NCBI RefSeq assembly: GCF_006937785.1
Contig: NZ_SJEE01000001.1
Location: forward strand, 248,001-312,000
Origin: Pseudanabaena sp. UWO311
GTDB taxonomy: Bacteria > Cyanobacteriota > Cyanobacteriia > Pseudanabaenales > Pseudanabaenaceae
Reading direction: 5' to 3'
Length of the DNA stretch: 64,000 nucleotides
Shown here in pieces: positions 5,426 through 12,035 of the stretch. The notes under the pieces were generated by a model, which worked only from the letters and a program-made list of their open reading frames with translations, searched no databases and was not told where the DNA came from. The translations under genes and the position numbers were made by a program. Position 1 is the stretch's first letter, and each line of letters opens with the position of its first letter.

Positions 5426-6760
5426 ATGCAAACTACTGTCTCCCCAAAACAAGAAAATAATAAACTCAAAAGTCTCTGGAAAAAGCCTTGGTTAGTTGTA
5501 GTTTTAATCGTTGTTCTTCTAGGTGGTGGATTTATTGTCTTTCGCGCCTTAGCTAGTAGAGATCAAAGCTCAACTCTAGTCAATGATAAAACTGAACAAG
5601 TTGAATCAAAGTCTCTAGCGATCAAAATTAAATCTAGTGGCTCTGTTGTCCCGATTGAAACCGTGAATCTCAGCCCGAAGCAGGCTGGAAAACTAATTGA
5701 GCTATTAGTTGAGCAAGGGGCAAGAGTAAATCGAGGACAGGTGATTGCCAGAATGGACAATGCTAACTTGCTACCGCAACTTTATCAAGCTCAAGCTAGT
5801 GCCGCTGCCAGTGAGGCTAATTTAGTCAAATTACGCAATGGTAGTCGTCCTGAAGATATTGCGGCGGCTCAGGCTAGGGTAGAAGCTGCTCGCGGTCGTT
5901 TAGATGCAGCCCGATCGCGTTTAGCTTTAACCAATATGAAAACGAATCGTTTTCGGAGCTTACAAACTGAGGGCGCGATTTCTAGCGATCGCTTTGATGA
6001 AGTTGTAACTGACGATCGCAGCGCTCAGGCTGATTTGCAAACTGCTCAAGCTAATCTGGTTGAGGCTACTCGTCTATTAGAAGAATCACGTAATGGAAGT
6101 CGTGCTGAAGATATTGCTCAAGCGGAAGCACAACTTGCTCAAGCGATCGCAGGTATCAGAATCATCGAAGTCCAGATCGAAGATACGATTATTCGCGCTC
6201 CCTTTGCGGGGATTATCACCCAAAAATATGCCAATGCAGGAGCCTTTGTAACGCCGACAACGACAGCTTCGGCAAGCAATTCTTCTTCTTCAACTTCAAT
6301 TGTAGCGATCGCGAATGGCTTAGAGATTATAGCGAAGGTTCCTGAAGTAGATATTTCCCAAATCAAGATTGGTCAAGAAGTGGAAATTGTTGCTGATGCT
6401 TTTCCGACTGAGGTGTTTAAGGGAAAAGTCCGTTTGATTGCGCCTGAAGCAATCATTGAGCAGAATGTTACGTCATTTCAAGTGCGTGTAACTTTAGAAA
6501 CTGGCAAAGATAAGTTGCAATCGGGAATGAATACGGATTTGCGCTTTATTGGCAAACAAATTGATGGTGCTCTGGTTGTGCCGACGGTGGCGATCGTCAC
6601 GCAAGAAGGCAAAACAGGTTTATTAATTGCTGATGAAAAGGGGCAACCCCAGTTTCAACCTGTGACGATTGGTTCAACTGTAGACAATCAGACTCAAATT
6701 TTAAGTGGTGCGAAAGTAGGTGATCGCGTATTTGTGAAACAACCAGATAAAAAGCCATAA
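5426..6760 (+). CDS. HlyD/RND-type periplasmic adaptor (membrane fusion) protein
   Basis: A 444-residue membrane fusion protein of the DevB/HlyD type. It has a short cytoplasmic tail and one N-terminal membrane anchor (~residues 18-42). A split biotinyl-lipoyl domain follows, with a long alpha-hairpin between the halves (~110-260), then beta-barrel and C-terminal domains. The hairpin contains a duplicated block: NGSRPEDIAAAQA and NGSRAEDIAQAEA. Such adaptors link an inner-membrane ABC or RND pump to an outer-membrane TolC-like channel for export. In cyanobacteria devB is usually followed by devC and devA, but here a terminator follows directly and no pump gene is adjacent, so the substrate cannot be inferred. 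The ATG at 5426 gives the usual short N tail. Confidence 0.9.
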   Translation: MQTTVSPKQENNKLKSLWKKPWLVVVLIVVLLGGGFIVFRALASRDQSSTLVNDKTEQVESKSLAIKIKSSGSVVPIETVNLSPKQAGKLIELLVEQGARVNRGQVIARMDNANLLPQLYQAQASAAASEANLVKLRNGSRPEDIAAAQARVEAARGRLDAARSRLALTNMKTNRFRSLQTEGAISSDRFDEVVTDDRSAQADLQTAQANLVEATRLLEESRNGSRAEDIAQAEAQLAQAIAGIRIIEVQIEDTIIRAPFAGIITQKYANAGAFVTPTTTASASNSSSSTSIVAIANGLEIIAKVPEVDISQIKIGQEVEIVADAFPTEVFKGKVRLIAPEAIIEQNVTSFQVRVTLETGKDKLQSGMNTDLRFIGKQIDGALVVPTVAIVTQEGKTGLLIADEKGQPQFQPVTIGSTVDNQTQILSGAKVGDRVFVKQPDKKP

Positions 6761-6859: not shown

Positions 6860-7144
6860 TTAGTCAATGTCGTTATTAGCGAGGTATTGATTGGATGGGC
6901 AGTCTAGCTTCTCAACTTGTGGGGCTGGGCTATCTGGGATATGAGTCGATGAGGGTAGGTTAACGAGAGTTACACCAATTGTCATGAGATGTGATAGCAC
7001 AAATCCGCTAATTTTGGCGATGAGTGGTAAGCGTTTCCAAGGGATTTCTAGCTCTAGGTGCAGTCCTTGCTCGTTAGCGGAGATTTCTAATTGGGTGTCG
7101 TTGATTGCTTGGTTATCTTTGTTGTTATCGATATTGTTAGCCAT
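6860..7144 (-). CDS. Small hypothetical protein with one hydrophobic segment
   Basis: 94 residues. The N terminus is polar and Asn/Asp-rich. The middle contains LELEIPWKRLPLIAK, then a hydrophobic helix of ~22 residues (~45-67) that could span the membrane, then a Pro-rich tail with one Cys. I do not recognise the family. The ATG at 7144 is preceded by AGGAGCTAAAGGAC on the coding strand, a good ribosome site. It stands alone, converging with the adaptor gene. Confidence 0.65.
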   Translation of the reverse strand: MANNIDNNKDNQAINDTQLEISANEQGLHLELEIPWKRLPLIAKISGFVLSHLMTIGVTLVNLPSSTHIPDSPAPQVEKLDCPSNQYLANNDID

Positions 7145-7364
7145 GTCCTTTAGCTCCTATTTTAAAGTTTAATTTTTCTGGACTAAACCTATTAAAATGC
7201 CTGTCAGAAGGGTGTCTGAGGATAATCAATGCGGATAATCAGCAACTTTAGAAAATACTTTTCAAATCCTGAAAAGCATTATTTAGCAAGGCTTTTGGGG
7301 CTTTGGGTAAGAATTGCGGATTTTCAGCAGTGGTTTGTTGATTTTCAGCAGGTGGAGGTGAGTT

Positions 7365-8420
7365 TTGGCTAATTGGAGATTGAGTAATGAGGGATATAAA
7401 CTTTTTAACGAACGACTAAAAGCTAATGGCTGGGATTCGCTTAACAAAACTGAATTAGCAACATTGCTAAAAGCGGATCGCAATAACATAGTGACGAATT
7501 TGCTTAATAGGGATCATGAAGGACAGCTATCAAAACTAAAAGCTGTCATGATCCGTCTGGGATTAGATGAAGATGATGTTGAATCAGATAGTTTTGCAAG
7601 ACGATATTTTGAAGAAGTTAAAACTCCTGCTAAATCTCTATCTGACGATAAGCTAGAATCTGGAATATTTCAGAGAGAAGAGATAGCGACTAACTCAAAC
7701 ACAAACTCATTTACTCAAAATCCTTTTGTTCCTCGTTCAGGGACTATTAACGATCCTGAACATTTTTTTGGGAGAGATAAGGAGATATATGACGTTTTTG
7801 AGGCAATTAACTCTGGTGACTGTGTTGAGTTGTTAGGAAAGCAACGACAAATCGGTAAGTCATCGATATTAATTCAGATTAAGAACCTTGCAATTACAAA
7901 ATTTAGAGATAAATGGGAACCAATCTATCTCAATTTGAATACAATTCATACGGAACCAGATTTTTATGAATCTTTTTGCGATGAATTGAATATATCTGGT
8001 TGTACTGGTAATGACTTAAAAAGGCAGTTTAGGAAGAGACAAAACCGCATACTTTTACTTTTGGATGAGACAGAGAATTTAACAGAAAAAGGTTTTACAA
8101 GGGAAGTAAGACAGTCTCTAAGAGGTTTTGCAGATGAAGGTTATCTGATTTATGTTGTAGCGGTTTTTACGCCGCTCAAAGAAATGTTTAAAGATAGTCA
8201 TGAGCAAGGGAAAACTTCACCTTTTCAAGATAGGTGTACGACAACGGTGGAAATCAATCCTTGGGATGAGAAAACGGTGTGTAGGTTTATTACTTCAAAA
8301 CTAGAAAATACTGGAGTTTGCTTTAGTAATGCAGAAATAGAAAAATTGTGGTTAGAGAGCCAAGGTCATCCACAAAAACTGATGAAAGCTTGTTTTGATC
8401 TATATCGTCAATATCGCTAA
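7365..8420 (+). CDS. AAA/STAND-like NTPase with N-terminal HTH-like domain
   Basis: 351 residues, starting at a TTG supported by GGTGGAGGTGAG just upstream. No better in-frame ATG precedes the conserved start. Residues ~1-70 resemble the small helical/HTH-like domain that precedes the NTPase in many cyanobacterial STAND proteins. Residues ~125-345 form an AAA-like NTPase, with FGRDKEI, Walker A in GKQRQIGKSS (~158-167) and Walker B RILLLLDE (~228-235). There is no membrane segment and no C-terminal repeat sensor. The stop codon is 5 bases before the next start, so the two NTPase genes are translationally linked. The role is unknown; regulated ATP-dependent switching in stress response or defence is inference from the architecture. 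Confidence 0.8.
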   Translation: MANWRLSNEGYKLFNERLKANGWDSLNKTELATLLKADRNNIVTNLLNRDHEGQLSKLKAVMIRLGLDEDDVESDSFARRYFEEVKTPAKSLSDDKLESGIFQREEIATNSNTNSFTQNPFVPRSGTINDPEHFFGRDKEIYDVFEAINSGDCVELLGKQRQIGKSSILIQIKNLAITKFRDKWEPIYLNLNTIHTEPDFYESFCDELNISGCTGNDLKRQFRKRQNRILLLLDETENLTEKGFTREVRQSLRGFADEGYLIYVVAVFTPLKEMFKDSHEQGKTSPFQDRCTTTVEINPWDEKTVCRFITSKLENTGVCFSNAEIEKLWLESQGHPQKLMKACFDLYRQYR

Positions 8421-8425
8421 AACCT

Positions 8426-11305
8426 ATGACCGAAGAAACATCCACAGCACAAGTCCCACTCCTCGACCTCGCGCCAAAACTCAAGCGTCCACTGTCACTC
8501 TGGAATCCTCTTGATTATCTATTGTTGCTCTATTGGGTGTTCTATTTCCCACAAGCAATTCGTTGGTATGTGGAAACCTATTGCGAACCTGAACCCGAAT
8601 CAGACCGACTAACATGGCAACAACGCTGGCAACTAGTCATAAACTCGCGCAAACGCCACCTAGCACTCATGGGATTACTTCTGGAAATAGCTGTTCCTAT
8701 ATCGATCTTTTTTAGTTTGGAAAGTGTCGGCATTCCAATTAATGAGAATTATCTTGAGTTTTCTGTGATTTTATCAGCTGTGATAATGGTTTTGACGCTA
8801 TTTACGTCGAAAGGTTTGGAGATAGGTTCGTTGTATGGTTTGTTTTTGGGGATTATGGGTTTGGCAGCGTTTGGGGGGACTGGTGGGGCAGGAGGTGTGA
8901 CTGGTGGGGCAGGAGGTGTGACGTTATTTGTGGTATTTGGTGTGACATTTGTTTCTAGGGCTAGTATAGCGGGTGGTGTGGCTTTGAGAGTAGCGAGTAG
9001 TATGGGGTCGTGTGTCACGATGGGTTTGGTATTTGGTGCGGGTGCGGGTGTGACATATGTTTTGGCGTTATGTGTGGCGAGCAGTGTGGCTATATTACGT
9101 CTAGATAATCTATTGCTCTCGCTTGGTTCCATTCCTAGAACTACACCCTTAACCTTACCTTGCCTTAGACATCAGCTTGACATTTGGCTTAAATCTGACT
9201 GGCAAAGCGGTCTGATGAATGTAAACCAACTCTTAAAATATTCCCTCCAATTTATTTCCGTTGATGTTTCACTTAACAAAGAACTTAATAGATTAGATTC
9301 TAGCTTGTTAGTTTCTCACATTGCTGCACTCAGCGATCTTATTTGGGATTGGGAAGTGCTGCGTTACACTTCAGCTTCTCTCACGGATGCCCTCAAAGCC
9401 GAATTTGTTGAAAATATTATTTGGCTCCCTTACAAATCATGGTTTGCAAGCCGTTGGGGAGCAAATCGAGATCTCCGTTTTGACACAGATGCTCATACTG
9501 CCGCCGCAGGTTTTTGGTATCTCTATGAAGCCTCAAAAGCTAAAGAAGTTGACGAATCTATTTCAAGTCTGACAAAAGCTGTAGAAGTATTTGAGAATTT
9601 AAGACAGATTAGACATGGCGATGAGATGTGTAAAATTGTCATAAACCTACGAAACTATAGTAAACCAACGAATCTAGAAGAGTTATTAAATATTCCCTCA
9701 ACTGAATTTCCTAATGAAGCAAATTTTAATACCCCTAATTCACAAATATTTTCAGGGTTAGATATTTCCGATATCACAGTTAAACCTGCGCTTAAATCAG
9801 TATATTTTATTCCGATATCATTTATACCACCAGAAAAAGCAGAAGATAATATCTCAGGAAATTCTCCTCGCGTTGCAGCCGTTAAATTCTTAAGACTTGC
9901 ATTTGATATTTTACGTCCTCAAACATGGAATTTAATTAGTAAATTATCAATTGCCCTCTCACAGATTCAAACTATTAGTCGCTCCACATCTCGTACCACC
10001 CGTTCCTACTCTCTAAACAGCGCTCTTGGACAAATCACAGAAGTCCTTAAAATTATTGATACGTTACCGACTGAAGTTTCTCGTGTCGAAAAACCAATCC
10101 TAAAAGATATAGCTATTCGCTGGCGCGATATCCTTCTCAGTGCAGCCAGTGAAATCGGACAAATCGAAATTGACAAACCGATCGCGAATCCCTACACCAT
10201 CGGCGATCCTGTTATAGGTGAGCGTTTCATCGGACGAGAAGACATTCTCCGCCAACTCGAAGAACTCTGGTTTATCAACACTAGTCCACAATCGGTGATC
10301 CTCTATGGACATCGCCGCATGGGTAAAACCTCCATCCTTCGCAATGCCACCACCAAAGTTAATAGCGAAGTTCGCGTTGCCTACGTTAACCTCCTCAGCG
10401 TTAGTAGCGCCAACAACGGCATTACCGACATCCTCATGGCAATTTGCGACGCACTCGAAGAAGTTACCGAAATTCCTGTACCAAGCAATAACGACCTACT
10501 CCAATTCCCAGAAACCACCTTTCGCCGCTATTTAGAACAAATCACGAAAACCTTCACAGGCAAAGGACTCATCATCTCTCTTGACGAATTTGAGAAAATC
10601 GAAGAACTGATCGATGCAGGTAAACTCAGCAAAGATTTTCTCGGCTTCCTGCGTGGCATGGTGCAAATGAGCAGCAAACTCGCCTTTGCCTTTGCAGGAC
10701 TGCACACCCTCCAAGAAATGAACGCCGACTACTTCCAGCCCTTCTTCTCTAGTTTTATTTCTATCCCCGTTACCTTCCTCACCCGTGAGGCAACTCACCA
10801 AGTCCTCGCCAACCCCGATCCCGAATTCCTACTCGAATACGAACCTACCGCCCTTGACCATATCTACGACCTTACCAACGGACAGCCCTACCTCACCCAA
10901 CTGATCGGATTCCAACTCGTGCGCCTATTTAACGACTATGTATTCGAGCAAGGCAAACCACGCGATCGCACCTTCACCATTGATGATGTACGCACCATCT
11001 GCTCAGGCGAAAACTTTTTCGCCACAGGCATTAACTACTTCAATGGAGTCTGGCAACAAGCCGCCGAAGGTGCAGCTCATCAACAAGACATTCTCAAAGC
11101 CCTAGCCCCTCATCCCCAAGGACTCAACGAATCAGAACTAATCTCACAAACTAATCTACCTAGCGAAACTCTACAAGCCGCCCTCAAAACCCTCAAAGAT
11201 CACGACGTAATTCGCGTTCAAAAAACTAATGAGATGGTTAATTATGCGATCGCTGTCGAACTCTCCCGTACTTGGGTCGTTAGATACAAACTGAGTAATA
11301 CTTAG
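8426..11305 (+). CDS. Membrane-anchored AAA-like NTPase
   Basis: 959 residues. The N-terminal third has hydrophobic segments at ~87-136 and a Gly/Val/Ala-rich membrane region at ~138-230. The middle region (~240-590) is of unknown fold. The C-terminal third is an AAA/ORC-like NTPase: FIGREDILRQL, Walker A GHRRMGKTS (~627-635), Walker B GLIISLDEFEK (~713-723), then a winged-helix-like end (~880-950). It is in one operon with the soluble NTPase at 7365. Codon use changes inside the gene: the first part is T- and G-rich, the C-terminal part C-rich. This suggests a fusion of parts with different histories. The joint function is not known to me. Confidence 0.8.
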   Translation: MTEETSTAQVPLLDLAPKLKRPLSLWNPLDYLLLLYWVFYFPQAIRWYVETYCEPEPESDRLTWQQRWQLVINSRKRHLALMGLLLEIAVPISIFFSLESVGIPINENYLEFSVILSAVIMVLTLFTSKGLEIGSLYGLFLGIMGLAAFGGTGGAGGVTGGAGGVTLFVVFGVTFVSRASIAGGVALRVASSMGSCVTMGLVFGAGAGVTYVLALCVASSVAILRLDNLLLSLGSIPRTTPLTLPCLRHQLDIWLKSDWQSGLMNVNQLLKYSLQFISVDVSLNKELNRLDSSLLVSHIAALSDLIWDWEVLRYTSASLTDALKAEFVENIIWLPYKSWFASRWGANRDLRFDTDAHTAAAGFWYLYEASKAKEVDESISSLTKAVEVFENLRQIRHGDEMCKIVINLRNYSKPTNLEELLNIPSTEFPNEANFNTPNSQIFSGLDISDITVKPALKSVYFIPISFIPPEKAEDNISGNSPRVAAVKFLRLAFDILRPQTWNLISKLSIALSQIQTISRSTSRTTRSYSLNSALGQITEVLKIIDTLPTEVSRVEKPILKDIAIRWRDILLSAASEIGQIEIDKPIANPYTIGDPVIGERFIGREDILRQLEELWFINTSPQSVILYGHRRMGKTSILRNATTKVNSEVRVAYVNLLSVSSANNGITDILMAICDALEEVTEIPVPSNNDLLQFPETTFRRYLEQITKTFTGKGLIISLDEFEKIEELIDAGKLSKDFLGFLRGMVQMSSKLAFAFAGLHTLQEMNADYFQPFFSSFISIPVTFLTREATHQVLANPDPEFLLEYEPTALDHIYDLTNGQPYLTQLIGFQLVRLFNDYVFEQGKPRDRTFTIDDVRTICSGENFFATGINYFNGVWQQAAEGAAHQQDILKALAPHPQGLNESELISQTNLPSETLQAALKTLKDHDVIRVQKTNEMVNYAIAVELSRTWVVRYKLSNT
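8881..8922 (+). repeat. 21-bp tandem duplication inside the membrane NTPase gene
   Basis: TGGTGGGGCAGGAGGTGTGAC occurs twice in direct succession and encodes two copies of a Gly-Gly-Ala-Gly-Gly-Val-Thr unit inside the membrane region. Slippage could change its length in frame. Confidence 0.7.
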
Positions 11306-11385: not shown

Positions 11386-11775
11386 CTAACTCATTGTTGG
11401 TAACCAAGAACAACCTACAAGATTTTGATCGACAGTTGCTAAAGTTAGTTCATAGAAAATAGCTGAAGCAGCGATGAAGCGATCGGCAGGGTCTTGATGC
11501 GGTAACTCGATCTGGCGGCTTAAAAGTGCAATATCATGATTTAAGTTTGCTTCACGAGTTTCTAAGTTATTTAACGCTAATCCTATCCAGATTCTTGCTT
11601 CAGGTTTCAAAGAAATACGTTTTTTTTCAGCAAGTAGTAAGGTTTCCCAAATGCTAATTGGACTAAGCTAAAGCTCAGTGGATGAATCGGCGATCGCGGA
11701 TTGTAGCTGTAGCGATAGGCGATCGTCACCAAGTTGATACCAAAGCCAAATATGAGTATCCAGCAGTAGTTTCAC
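11386..11775 (-). pseudogene. PIN-domain toxin gene (VapC-like) with an in-frame amber codon
   Basis: Read from the GTG at 11775, the frame encodes a full 129-codon PIN-domain toxin. It starts KLLLDTHIWLWYQ (first acidic residue of the site) and continues through SPISIWE and DPADRFIAASAI (last acidic residues). It is broken only by TAG at codon 36 (11670-11668), where relatives usually have Trp, so one TGG to TAG change explains it. The ORF track therefore shows only the distal 74 residues from a TTG. The start overlaps the antitoxin stop by 4 bases (GTGA), the usual coupling. VapC-type PIN proteins are ribonucleases. As it stands, only a 35-residue fragment or an internally restarted half-domain could be made, so the toxin is probably dead. 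Confidence 0.85.
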
Positions 11776-12035
11776 TGAAGTACTTCCCATACATTTTCAG
11801 GCAATGCTGGCATAACAATATCTCCCACAATCTCTCCGCTTCCTTTCAAGCTCCCAAAAGCTGGGCGTTGTTTTTGAGGCGTGGCAGGATAGATAATTAC
11901 CCAAGGCTTGCCATTATGAAACACTGTTAGGGGTGTTTTGGTCTGCTGAATTTCTGTGAATAGATTCAATAAGGCTTGGGGTAGTTCGGCGGTACTCAGT
12001 TGTCCCATAAGATTTTGTTGTATTGATAAGGGCAA
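11772..12035 (-). CDS. Type II antitoxin, Phd/YefM-like (VapB role)
   Basis: 87 residues. The N-terminal half is the DNA-binding Phd-like fold, with VFHNGKPWVIIYPA as the family-like strand pair. The C-terminal tail (FGSLKGSGEIVGDI) matches tails that wrap the PIN toxin. It is intact and is immediately upstream of, and overlaps by 4 bases, the broken PIN toxin gene. It would normally neutralise the toxin and repress the operon. With a dead toxin it may persist as an orphan that can still neutralise related toxins. Confidence 0.85.
   Translation of the reverse strand: MPLSIQQNLMGQLSTAELPQALLNLFTEIQQTKTPLTVFHNGKPWVIIYPATPQKQRPAFGSLKGSGEIVGDIVMPALPENVWEVLQ

Follow-up and report, generated by a model that had tools for sequence, protein, structure and literature searches.

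A candidate modular conflict cassette built on a soluble and a membrane STAND NTPase in Pseudanabaena sp. UWO311

Do two adjacent genes for P-loop nucleoside triphosphatases (NTPases), one soluble and one membrane-bound, form a unit, and what would such a unit do? The question is raised by a 64,000-nucleotide stretch of the genome of Pseudanabaena sp. UWO311 (contig NZ_SJEE01000001.1, positions 248,001 to 312,000; hereafter the window), in which the genes termed here A and B follow each other on the same strand. A first-pass annotation had read them as a possible undescribed two-gene system in which a nucleotide switch in both proteins would sense a signal and act at the membrane, as in some phage-defence systems. 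The positions and strands that it gave for the two NTPase genes and the 5 bases separating them were confirmed. Our answer, to which we give even chances of being right, is that they belong to a mobile, modular conflict (defence-type) cassette with a twin STAND core, in which B would be the sensor and gate, A the switch and a small divergent gene, ORF94, the split-off output.

The arrangement of A and B is not due to chance, since it recurs in other genomes: of the 72 B genes with enough 5' contig, 68 are immediately preceded by a gene A in the same orientation, and a 4-base overlap is common. Among 386 cyanobacterial genomes, strong relatives of B were found in about 26, with A adjoining and directly upstream in nearly all loci; in the window genome the pair occurs once. 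GTDB contigs, when scanned, gave 174 relatives. The best 80 by B similarity, a sample tilted to close relatives, belong to cyanobacteria that are filamentous or colonial, apart from two metagenome-assembled genomes (MAGs) of Methanothrix. Genes in these loci were called mechanically, so that start codons are uncertain, and membrane segments were predicted by hydropathy alone. The same order and design is found in more distant pairs (L089-L094), in which the A protein has a trypsin or a helix-turn-helix (HTH)-like N-terminus and B has 7-13 predicted membrane segments. Two natural A-B fusions were also found: in L072, A is joined to a B without its membrane part, possibly through a deletion, and L077 encodes a TIR-TIR-A-B protein from which the membrane part is also absent. 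Distances between A cores and between B NTPase domains are correlated (r=0.77, where the null reached at most 0.24; shared species history is still included in this value).

Both proteins carry the GR..E, P-loop, Walker B and GxP signatures, which gives them their STAND character; GxP is a conserved motif of this class (PMC6468293). When the profile of A was compared with that of B, hhalign gave a probability of 96.8 over the NTPase and, judged by these profiles, A and B are paralogous STAND NTPases. Window A matched a single Pfam family, nSTAND1 (PF20703), at 20.7 bits and thus below the cut-off of 27.1, and the same family was matched by 22 of 22 A proteins, several above the cut-off (best 6.6e-11). 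The AlphaFold model of A has a confident core (most blocks 79-96) with Orc1/Cdc6 and the archaeal ATPases 2qen and 2fna as Foldseek neighbours. For B, AAA_22 scored above its cut-off and ATPase_2 and AAA_16 just under, with winged-helix matches at the C-terminal end. Foldseek placed B near Orc1/Cdc6 and RuvB and, lower down, near Apaf-1 and plant NRC, matches that are indicative only because the model is moderate (mean pLDDT 68, pTM 0.46). No curated housekeeping family was matched by window A or B, and searches of NCBIfam and of PDB sequences with the window proteins gave generic NTPase matches only. The unusual TTG start of A, reported together with a strong ribosome site, is credible since GGAGGTGA stands just 5' of it and since the start and the first residues LANWRL are kept in two further Pseudanabaena copies.

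The two NTPases are nonetheless unequal, and the proposed nucleotide switch in both proteins has to be qualified in this respect. In B, the Walker A motif that had been picked out is identical in 87 of 90 proteins, DEFE is present in 90 of 90, the Walker B Asp and Glu in all 77 paired proteins, the G and P of GxP in 77 and 76 of 77, and the GR motif in 75-76 of 77. In A, the G and P of GxP are kept in 75 of 77 homologues (with 2 gaps), the Walker B Asp in 77 of 77 and the Arg of the GR motif in 71 of 77, and the P-loop Lys is kept in all but one of the proteins with residues there; the Walker B Glu position, however, holds E in 40, N in 31, V in 4, Q in 1 and K in 1 of the 77, a loss of Glu in 37. 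With Glu in 77/77 B proteins versus 40/77 A proteins, B is the invariant ATPase and A can often dispense with normal hydrolysis. By analogy with the STAND class, A and B would switch from ADP to ATP and assemble into multimers.

The N-terminal module of A is exchanged between homologues. The A N-termini fall into 13 sequence clusters (obtained by single linkage, the 'helical' classes not being proven HTH domains), and the B tree (a quick tree, LG+G4) requires no fewer than 21 changes between them. Pfam matches on these N-termini include CHAT, Trypsin_2, TIR_2, Peptidase_C14 (the caspase type, found in Methanothrix), EAD4 (in L084), LuxR/sigma-like HTH and Cro-type HTH; neither GT4 nor HEPN was among the matches listed. 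Exchange of N-terminal effectors is the pattern of NTP-dependent conflict systems (PMC7159879, PMC8195603).

A second region of exchange lies within B. The Gly-rich membrane domain of the first-pass annotation corresponds to about six segments at residues 79-230 that are hydrophobic by hydropathy, some of them Gly-rich, with Gly-Val-rich repeats whose length varies. Between Pseudanabaena copies, the rate of synonymous substitution (dS) is 0.95-3.2 in residues 61-495 versus 0.3-0.65 in both flanks, from which we conclude that the membrane segment was probably swapped by recombination, beyond mere point mutation. Low-complexity membrane repeats and stops in one copy add noise to this comparison, and the three intact comparisons agree. 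The copy with stops is that of Pseudanabaena sp. SR411 (L200), where four stops, all in frame and close together in the membrane segment, break the B gene of this assembly.

In the window, the pair is accompanied by a third gene. ORF94 matches no Pfam family and is present in exactly 3 of 26 Pseudanabaena genomes, namely those with the window-type A N-terminus; it is found neither in the 2 genomes with another A type nor in the 21 without a close pair. In one of the three (G399) the ORF94-A arrangement is the same at a different locus, and ORF94 differs from the window copy by a nonsynonymous rate (dN) of 0.02 for a dS of 0.14. Across the wider loci, a divergent gene for a small membrane protein lies upstream of A in 38 of 44 loci with an HTH or helical N-terminus versus 0 of 15 loci of the enzymatic class (CHAT, trypsin, TIR or caspase N-termini), a difference that Fisher's test (1.4e-9) overstates as the loci are related. 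The divergent proteins belong to four unrelated families, F1-F4, and the two full-length matches to F1 in the 386 genomes both adjoin A-B. In the distant pair L092, the divergent gene upstream of A encodes CyanoTRADDas_TM (3.4e-16), a membrane domain named for TRADD-N systems.

The DNA between the divergent genes is a putative regulatory region. Over positions 7125-7400 the mean column identity of the three Pseudanabaena copies is 96%, and the region contains direct repeats (Table 1). The pattern TGNNGATWWTCAGCA, derived from these repeats themselves, has 11 exact matches in the 5.2-Mb genome, 3 of them inside the 121 bp of the intergenic repeats. Loci with a Cro-type A carry three to four units of TTNGTATGCGTT that recur every 11 bp (with one unit extra in L113), and L161 and L155 carry GTAGG-type units at 10-bp steps. 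Compared with enzymatic loci, those with a divergent gene show a greater excess of repeats over shuffled sequences (p=0.0006, uncorrected for kinship of the loci), and repeats are individually significant in 14 of 38 versus 2 of 15. Oligomeric STAND regulators acting on repeated sites are an established mode, as for MalT. A palindromic operator was also considered and rejected, as none was convincing and the clear repeats are direct. Outside the window, at G000:C1:126404-126481, TGTGGATTATCCGCA occurs four times at exact 21-bp steps, with one mismatch to the TGNNGATWWTCAGCA pattern. The proposal of an undescribed two-gene system thus stands for the pair, which is genuine and apparently undescribed, and falls short in the HTH-type copies, where the divergent gene and a repeat-bearing intergenic region are added.

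The cassette is mobile. A close A-B pair is present in 5 of 26 Pseudanabaena genomes, directly after a HlyD gene in three of the 5, and the content 3' of HlyD varies from genome to genome. In a sister genome, G403, the same site after HlyD (L201) carries genes for Trypco1, trypsin-EAD9, EAD9-iSTAND, a MoxR-like AAA protein and vWA-CoxE. By the definition of PMC7159879 this is a textbook iSTAND ternary conflict system, apparently complete, and the region 3' of HlyD has the look of a hotspot for conflict systems. HlyD itself (5426-6760) occurs in every one of the 26 Pseudanabaena genomes and has a terminator-like hairpin of its own behind it; for these reasons HlyD and the surrounding genes were rejected as parts of the system. 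In another genome (G193, L061), 139 bp of the HlyD 3' end recur as a duplicate (89% identity) on the far side of A-B, a possible trace of insertion; such a duplicate was not found in the window.

Table 1. Coordinates of the cassette in the window and of the elements recognised in it
Feature	Position	Strand	Remarks
ORF94, small single-transmembrane protein, 94 aa	6860..7144	-	divergent to A; third gene of the HTH/helical variant
ORF94-A intergenic region, putative operator/promoter	7145..7364	.	conserved in three Pseudanabaena copies
Direct repeat TGAGGATAATCA	7217..7228	+	
Direct repeat TGCGGATAATCAGCA	7230..7244	+	
Direct repeat TGCGGATTTTCAGCA	7315..7329	+	
Direct repeat TGTTGATTTTCAGCA	7336..7350	+	
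Ribosome-binding site of A, GGAGGTGA	7354..7361	+	directly 5' of TTG; GGAGGT core kept in copies
Gene A	7365-8420	+	351 aa, TTG start; helical/HTH-like N-terminus and nSTAND1-like NTPase
A, exchangeable putative output/adaptor segment, residues 1-118	7365..7718	+	13 N-terminal clusters in homologues
A, Walker A GKQRQIGKSS	7836..7865	+	one extra residue
A, Walker B LLLLDE	8052..8069	+	Glu present; lost in 37/77 homologues
Gene B, membrane STAND/Orc-like ATPase	8426-11305	+	959 aa, ATG start
B, conserved N-terminus, residues 1-60, LDLAPKLKRPLSLWNPLDYL motif	8426..8605	+	76-88% identity among Pseudanabaena copies
B, hypervariable membrane and middle segment, residues 61-495	8606..9910	+	22-39% identity among intact Pseudanabaena copies
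B, NTPase and winged-helix end, residues 496-959	9911..11305	+	75-93% identity among Pseudanabaena copies
B, Walker A GHRRMGKTS	10307..10333	+	canonical
B, Walker B LDEFE	10580..10594	+	

Three observations lead us to a conflict role: the exchange of CHAT, caspase, trypsin, TIR and EAD4 domains, the patchy distribution and the site shared with an iSTAND ternary system. B, whose membrane segment is exchanged and whose ATPase site is invariant, is best placed as sensor and energy-using gate, and A, a short protein that has no sensor domain itself, as the output switch. In such a cassette, B would contact A and keep it silent at the membrane until a membrane signal alters B; A would then bind ATP, assemble on the direct repeats at 7217-7350 and switch ORF94 and A itself, and the ORF94 membrane protein would act on the cell as the effector, possibly against phage. 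Where A bears an enzyme, in other genomes, the output would be direct, through a CHAT, caspase, trypsin or TIR enzyme of the death type, with EAD4 as an adaptor, while for a helical or HTH-like A it would plausibly be transcription of the divergent membrane gene. As its output part alternates between known cell-death enzymes and domains that resemble DNA-binding ones, the cassette is very probably a so far undescribed relative of the self-sacrifice defence systems of multicellular microbes. More tentatively, and with a greater chance of being wrong than right, we suggest that a constant twin-STAND core has two output modes, a fused death enzyme or a DNA-binding switch inducing a divergent membrane effector, both under a membrane-STAND sensor diversified by recombination.

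Several results weigh against this proposal. The assignment of an HTH to window A, made in the first-pass annotation, is weak: AlphaFold predicts helices for the N-terminal region with low confidence only (pLDDT about 47-72), and the region matches no Pfam family. This domain is only about 45% identical to those of the two copies sharing the intergenic DNA, and a site-specific regulator is awkward when the intergenic region is 96% conserved while the A N-terminal domains differ by over half. No divergent gene was recognised in 6 of the 44 HTH/helical loci, and phylogenetic contrasts for the third gene amount to 1 on supported branches and 5 in all, none being opposite. The P-loop of window A, although present as annotated, is non-canonical: GKQRQIGKS has five residues from G to GK instead of four, a form unique to this copy, the spacing being canonical in 73 of 76 A proteins. 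Finally, phage records and viral contigs yielded no relatives, and PADLOC, run on the window proteins, returned only generic NTPase-level matches (PDC-S27/S01 and GajA). A plasmid search gave one remote match, in Acinetobacter, at 24.6% identity.

The atypical P-loop raises the possibility that the window copy is decaying, the pair having once been active and the function of A lost. A is AT-rich (GC content 0.355 versus 0.418 for the whole window) and diverges fast (other Pseudanabaena A proteins are 45-61% identical to it), and the SR411 copy of B has its four in-frame stops; yet A and B are open in the window, dN is well under dS in comparison with SR411 (0.32 versus 1.17 for the A core, 0.04 versus 0.30 for the B NTPase), and ORF94 is conserved, so that we consider decay rather improbable. 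If the cassette is functional, its output could lie elsewhere than in our proposal. B itself might kill, with its Gly-rich membrane helices forming a pore upon ATP-driven assembly and A acting as sensor or regulator. Membrane repeats that are Gly-Val-rich and of variable length would suit a pore, as would ATPase residues that are invariant in B when A often loses its Walker B Glu, but it is A that is fused to classic effector domains, the membrane domain is dropped and the NTPases are retained in the TIR-TIR-A-B protein, and hypervariability suits a sensor more than a pore; a killer B is unlikely.

The N-terminus of A could also be an EAD-like adaptor that recruits effectors through a second copy of the domain, with ORF94 as an accessory only. 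EAD4 does sit at the same place in L084 and the logic is that described for EADs (PMC7159879), but a genome-wide translated search gave no second copy (one match only at E<=10) and the direct repeats upstream point to DNA, which makes an adaptor quite improbable. Likewise, a membrane ATPase that restrains a STAND regulator has a precedent in MalT, which MalK, the ATPase of a transporter, keeps at the membrane (PMC10427625), and A-B might by this likeness in architecture serve ordinary physiology, such as transport or envelope stress, instead of conflict. The working would be similar, a soluble STAND DNA-binding switch under a membrane-bound ATPase; MalK, however, is an ABC ATPase unrelated to B, the DNA-binding domain of MalT is C-terminal and no effector exchange takes place. 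Exchange of CHAT, caspase, TIR and trypsin domains, patchy presence in the genus, the site shared with iSTAND and exchange within B all speak against a physiological role, which we hold to be unlikely.

Among known systems, Avs and other bacterial NLR anti-phage proteins share with A a STAND NTPase with an N-terminal effector. They are single large proteins with C-terminal sensors, whereas A is short and without one, which fits B supplying the sensor. Of the systems compared, the nSTAND2 two-gene system (Kaur et al. 2021, PMC8195603) comes closest to the pair and is also made of adjacent, mobile STAND genes. In that system catalytic motifs tend to be lost from the STAND that bears the effector, to which the frequent loss of the Walker B Glu in A may correspond. 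Its STANDs belong to the nSTAND2 family, near CR-ATPase/Dap3, with no membrane domain described, while A is nSTAND1-like and B has multiple transmembrane segments; its effectors are most commonly GT4 or HEPN, in contrast to the CHAT, caspase, trypsin, TIR, EAD4 and HTH modules and the divergent small membrane gene found here. The MoxR-vWA iSTAND ternary systems (Kaur et al. 2020, PMC7159879) resemble A-B in their STAND core, in swappable trypsin, caspase, TIR and EAD N-termini, in multicellular hosts and in the site occupied in G403, but no MoxR or vWA gene lies beside A-B in the window and the partner here is a membrane STAND. The EACC1 system (PMC7159879) likewise has two genes, membrane association and caspase-type effectors, its constant component differing from B as a single-transmembrane protein without an NTPase. 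No description of the pair as a coupled soluble and membrane STAND unit was found in the literature searched, most subscription papers lying outside that search; PMC8195603 names, within the MNS STAND clade, a Npun2340/2341 family that might be this pair, and a BREX-related iSTAND paper (PMC12839542) contained nothing relevant to A-B.

As a conflict system of multicellular prokaryotes, the cassette would bring in a new architecture, a twin STAND coupled to the membrane, which is carried by many cyanobacteria of filamentous or colonial habit and by a filamentous archaeon. If the two-mode reading is true, the cassette would be a bacterial immune receptor with a transcriptional output. It suggests that the killer enzyme fused to an immune core can be traded for a switch that binds DNA and a separate small membrane gene. 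Receptors with such an output would become directly open to experiment, and the exchanged membrane segment would be a natural starting point for finding out which signals they perceive.

Other observations concern relatives and neighbours of the cassette. L086, L087 and L088 (G312, G237) encode orphan membrane proteins that resemble B, are 483-536 aa long and lack the NTPase, and at L086 a decayed NTPase remnant with stops adjoins the orphan. The two Methanothrix MAGs (L135 and L137) carry a caspase-type A with B in a filamentous methanogen and are candidates for cross-domain transfer; in L135 the caspase part is an open reading frame (ORF) separate from A, and the contig of L137 holds another ORF which, read by eye, we take to be of the archaeal formylmethanofuran-dehydrogenase type, which argues against simple contamination. 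In the window, beyond B, a frame for a PIN-domain (VapC-like) protein lies at 11386-12035 on the minus strand, with a PIN match (0.0013) that falls below the cut-off and an in-frame stop in its N-terminal part. It is adjoined by an 87-aa ORF that matches no Pfam family and reads like an antitoxin, so that a toxin-antitoxin pair, now broken, probably borders the cassette.

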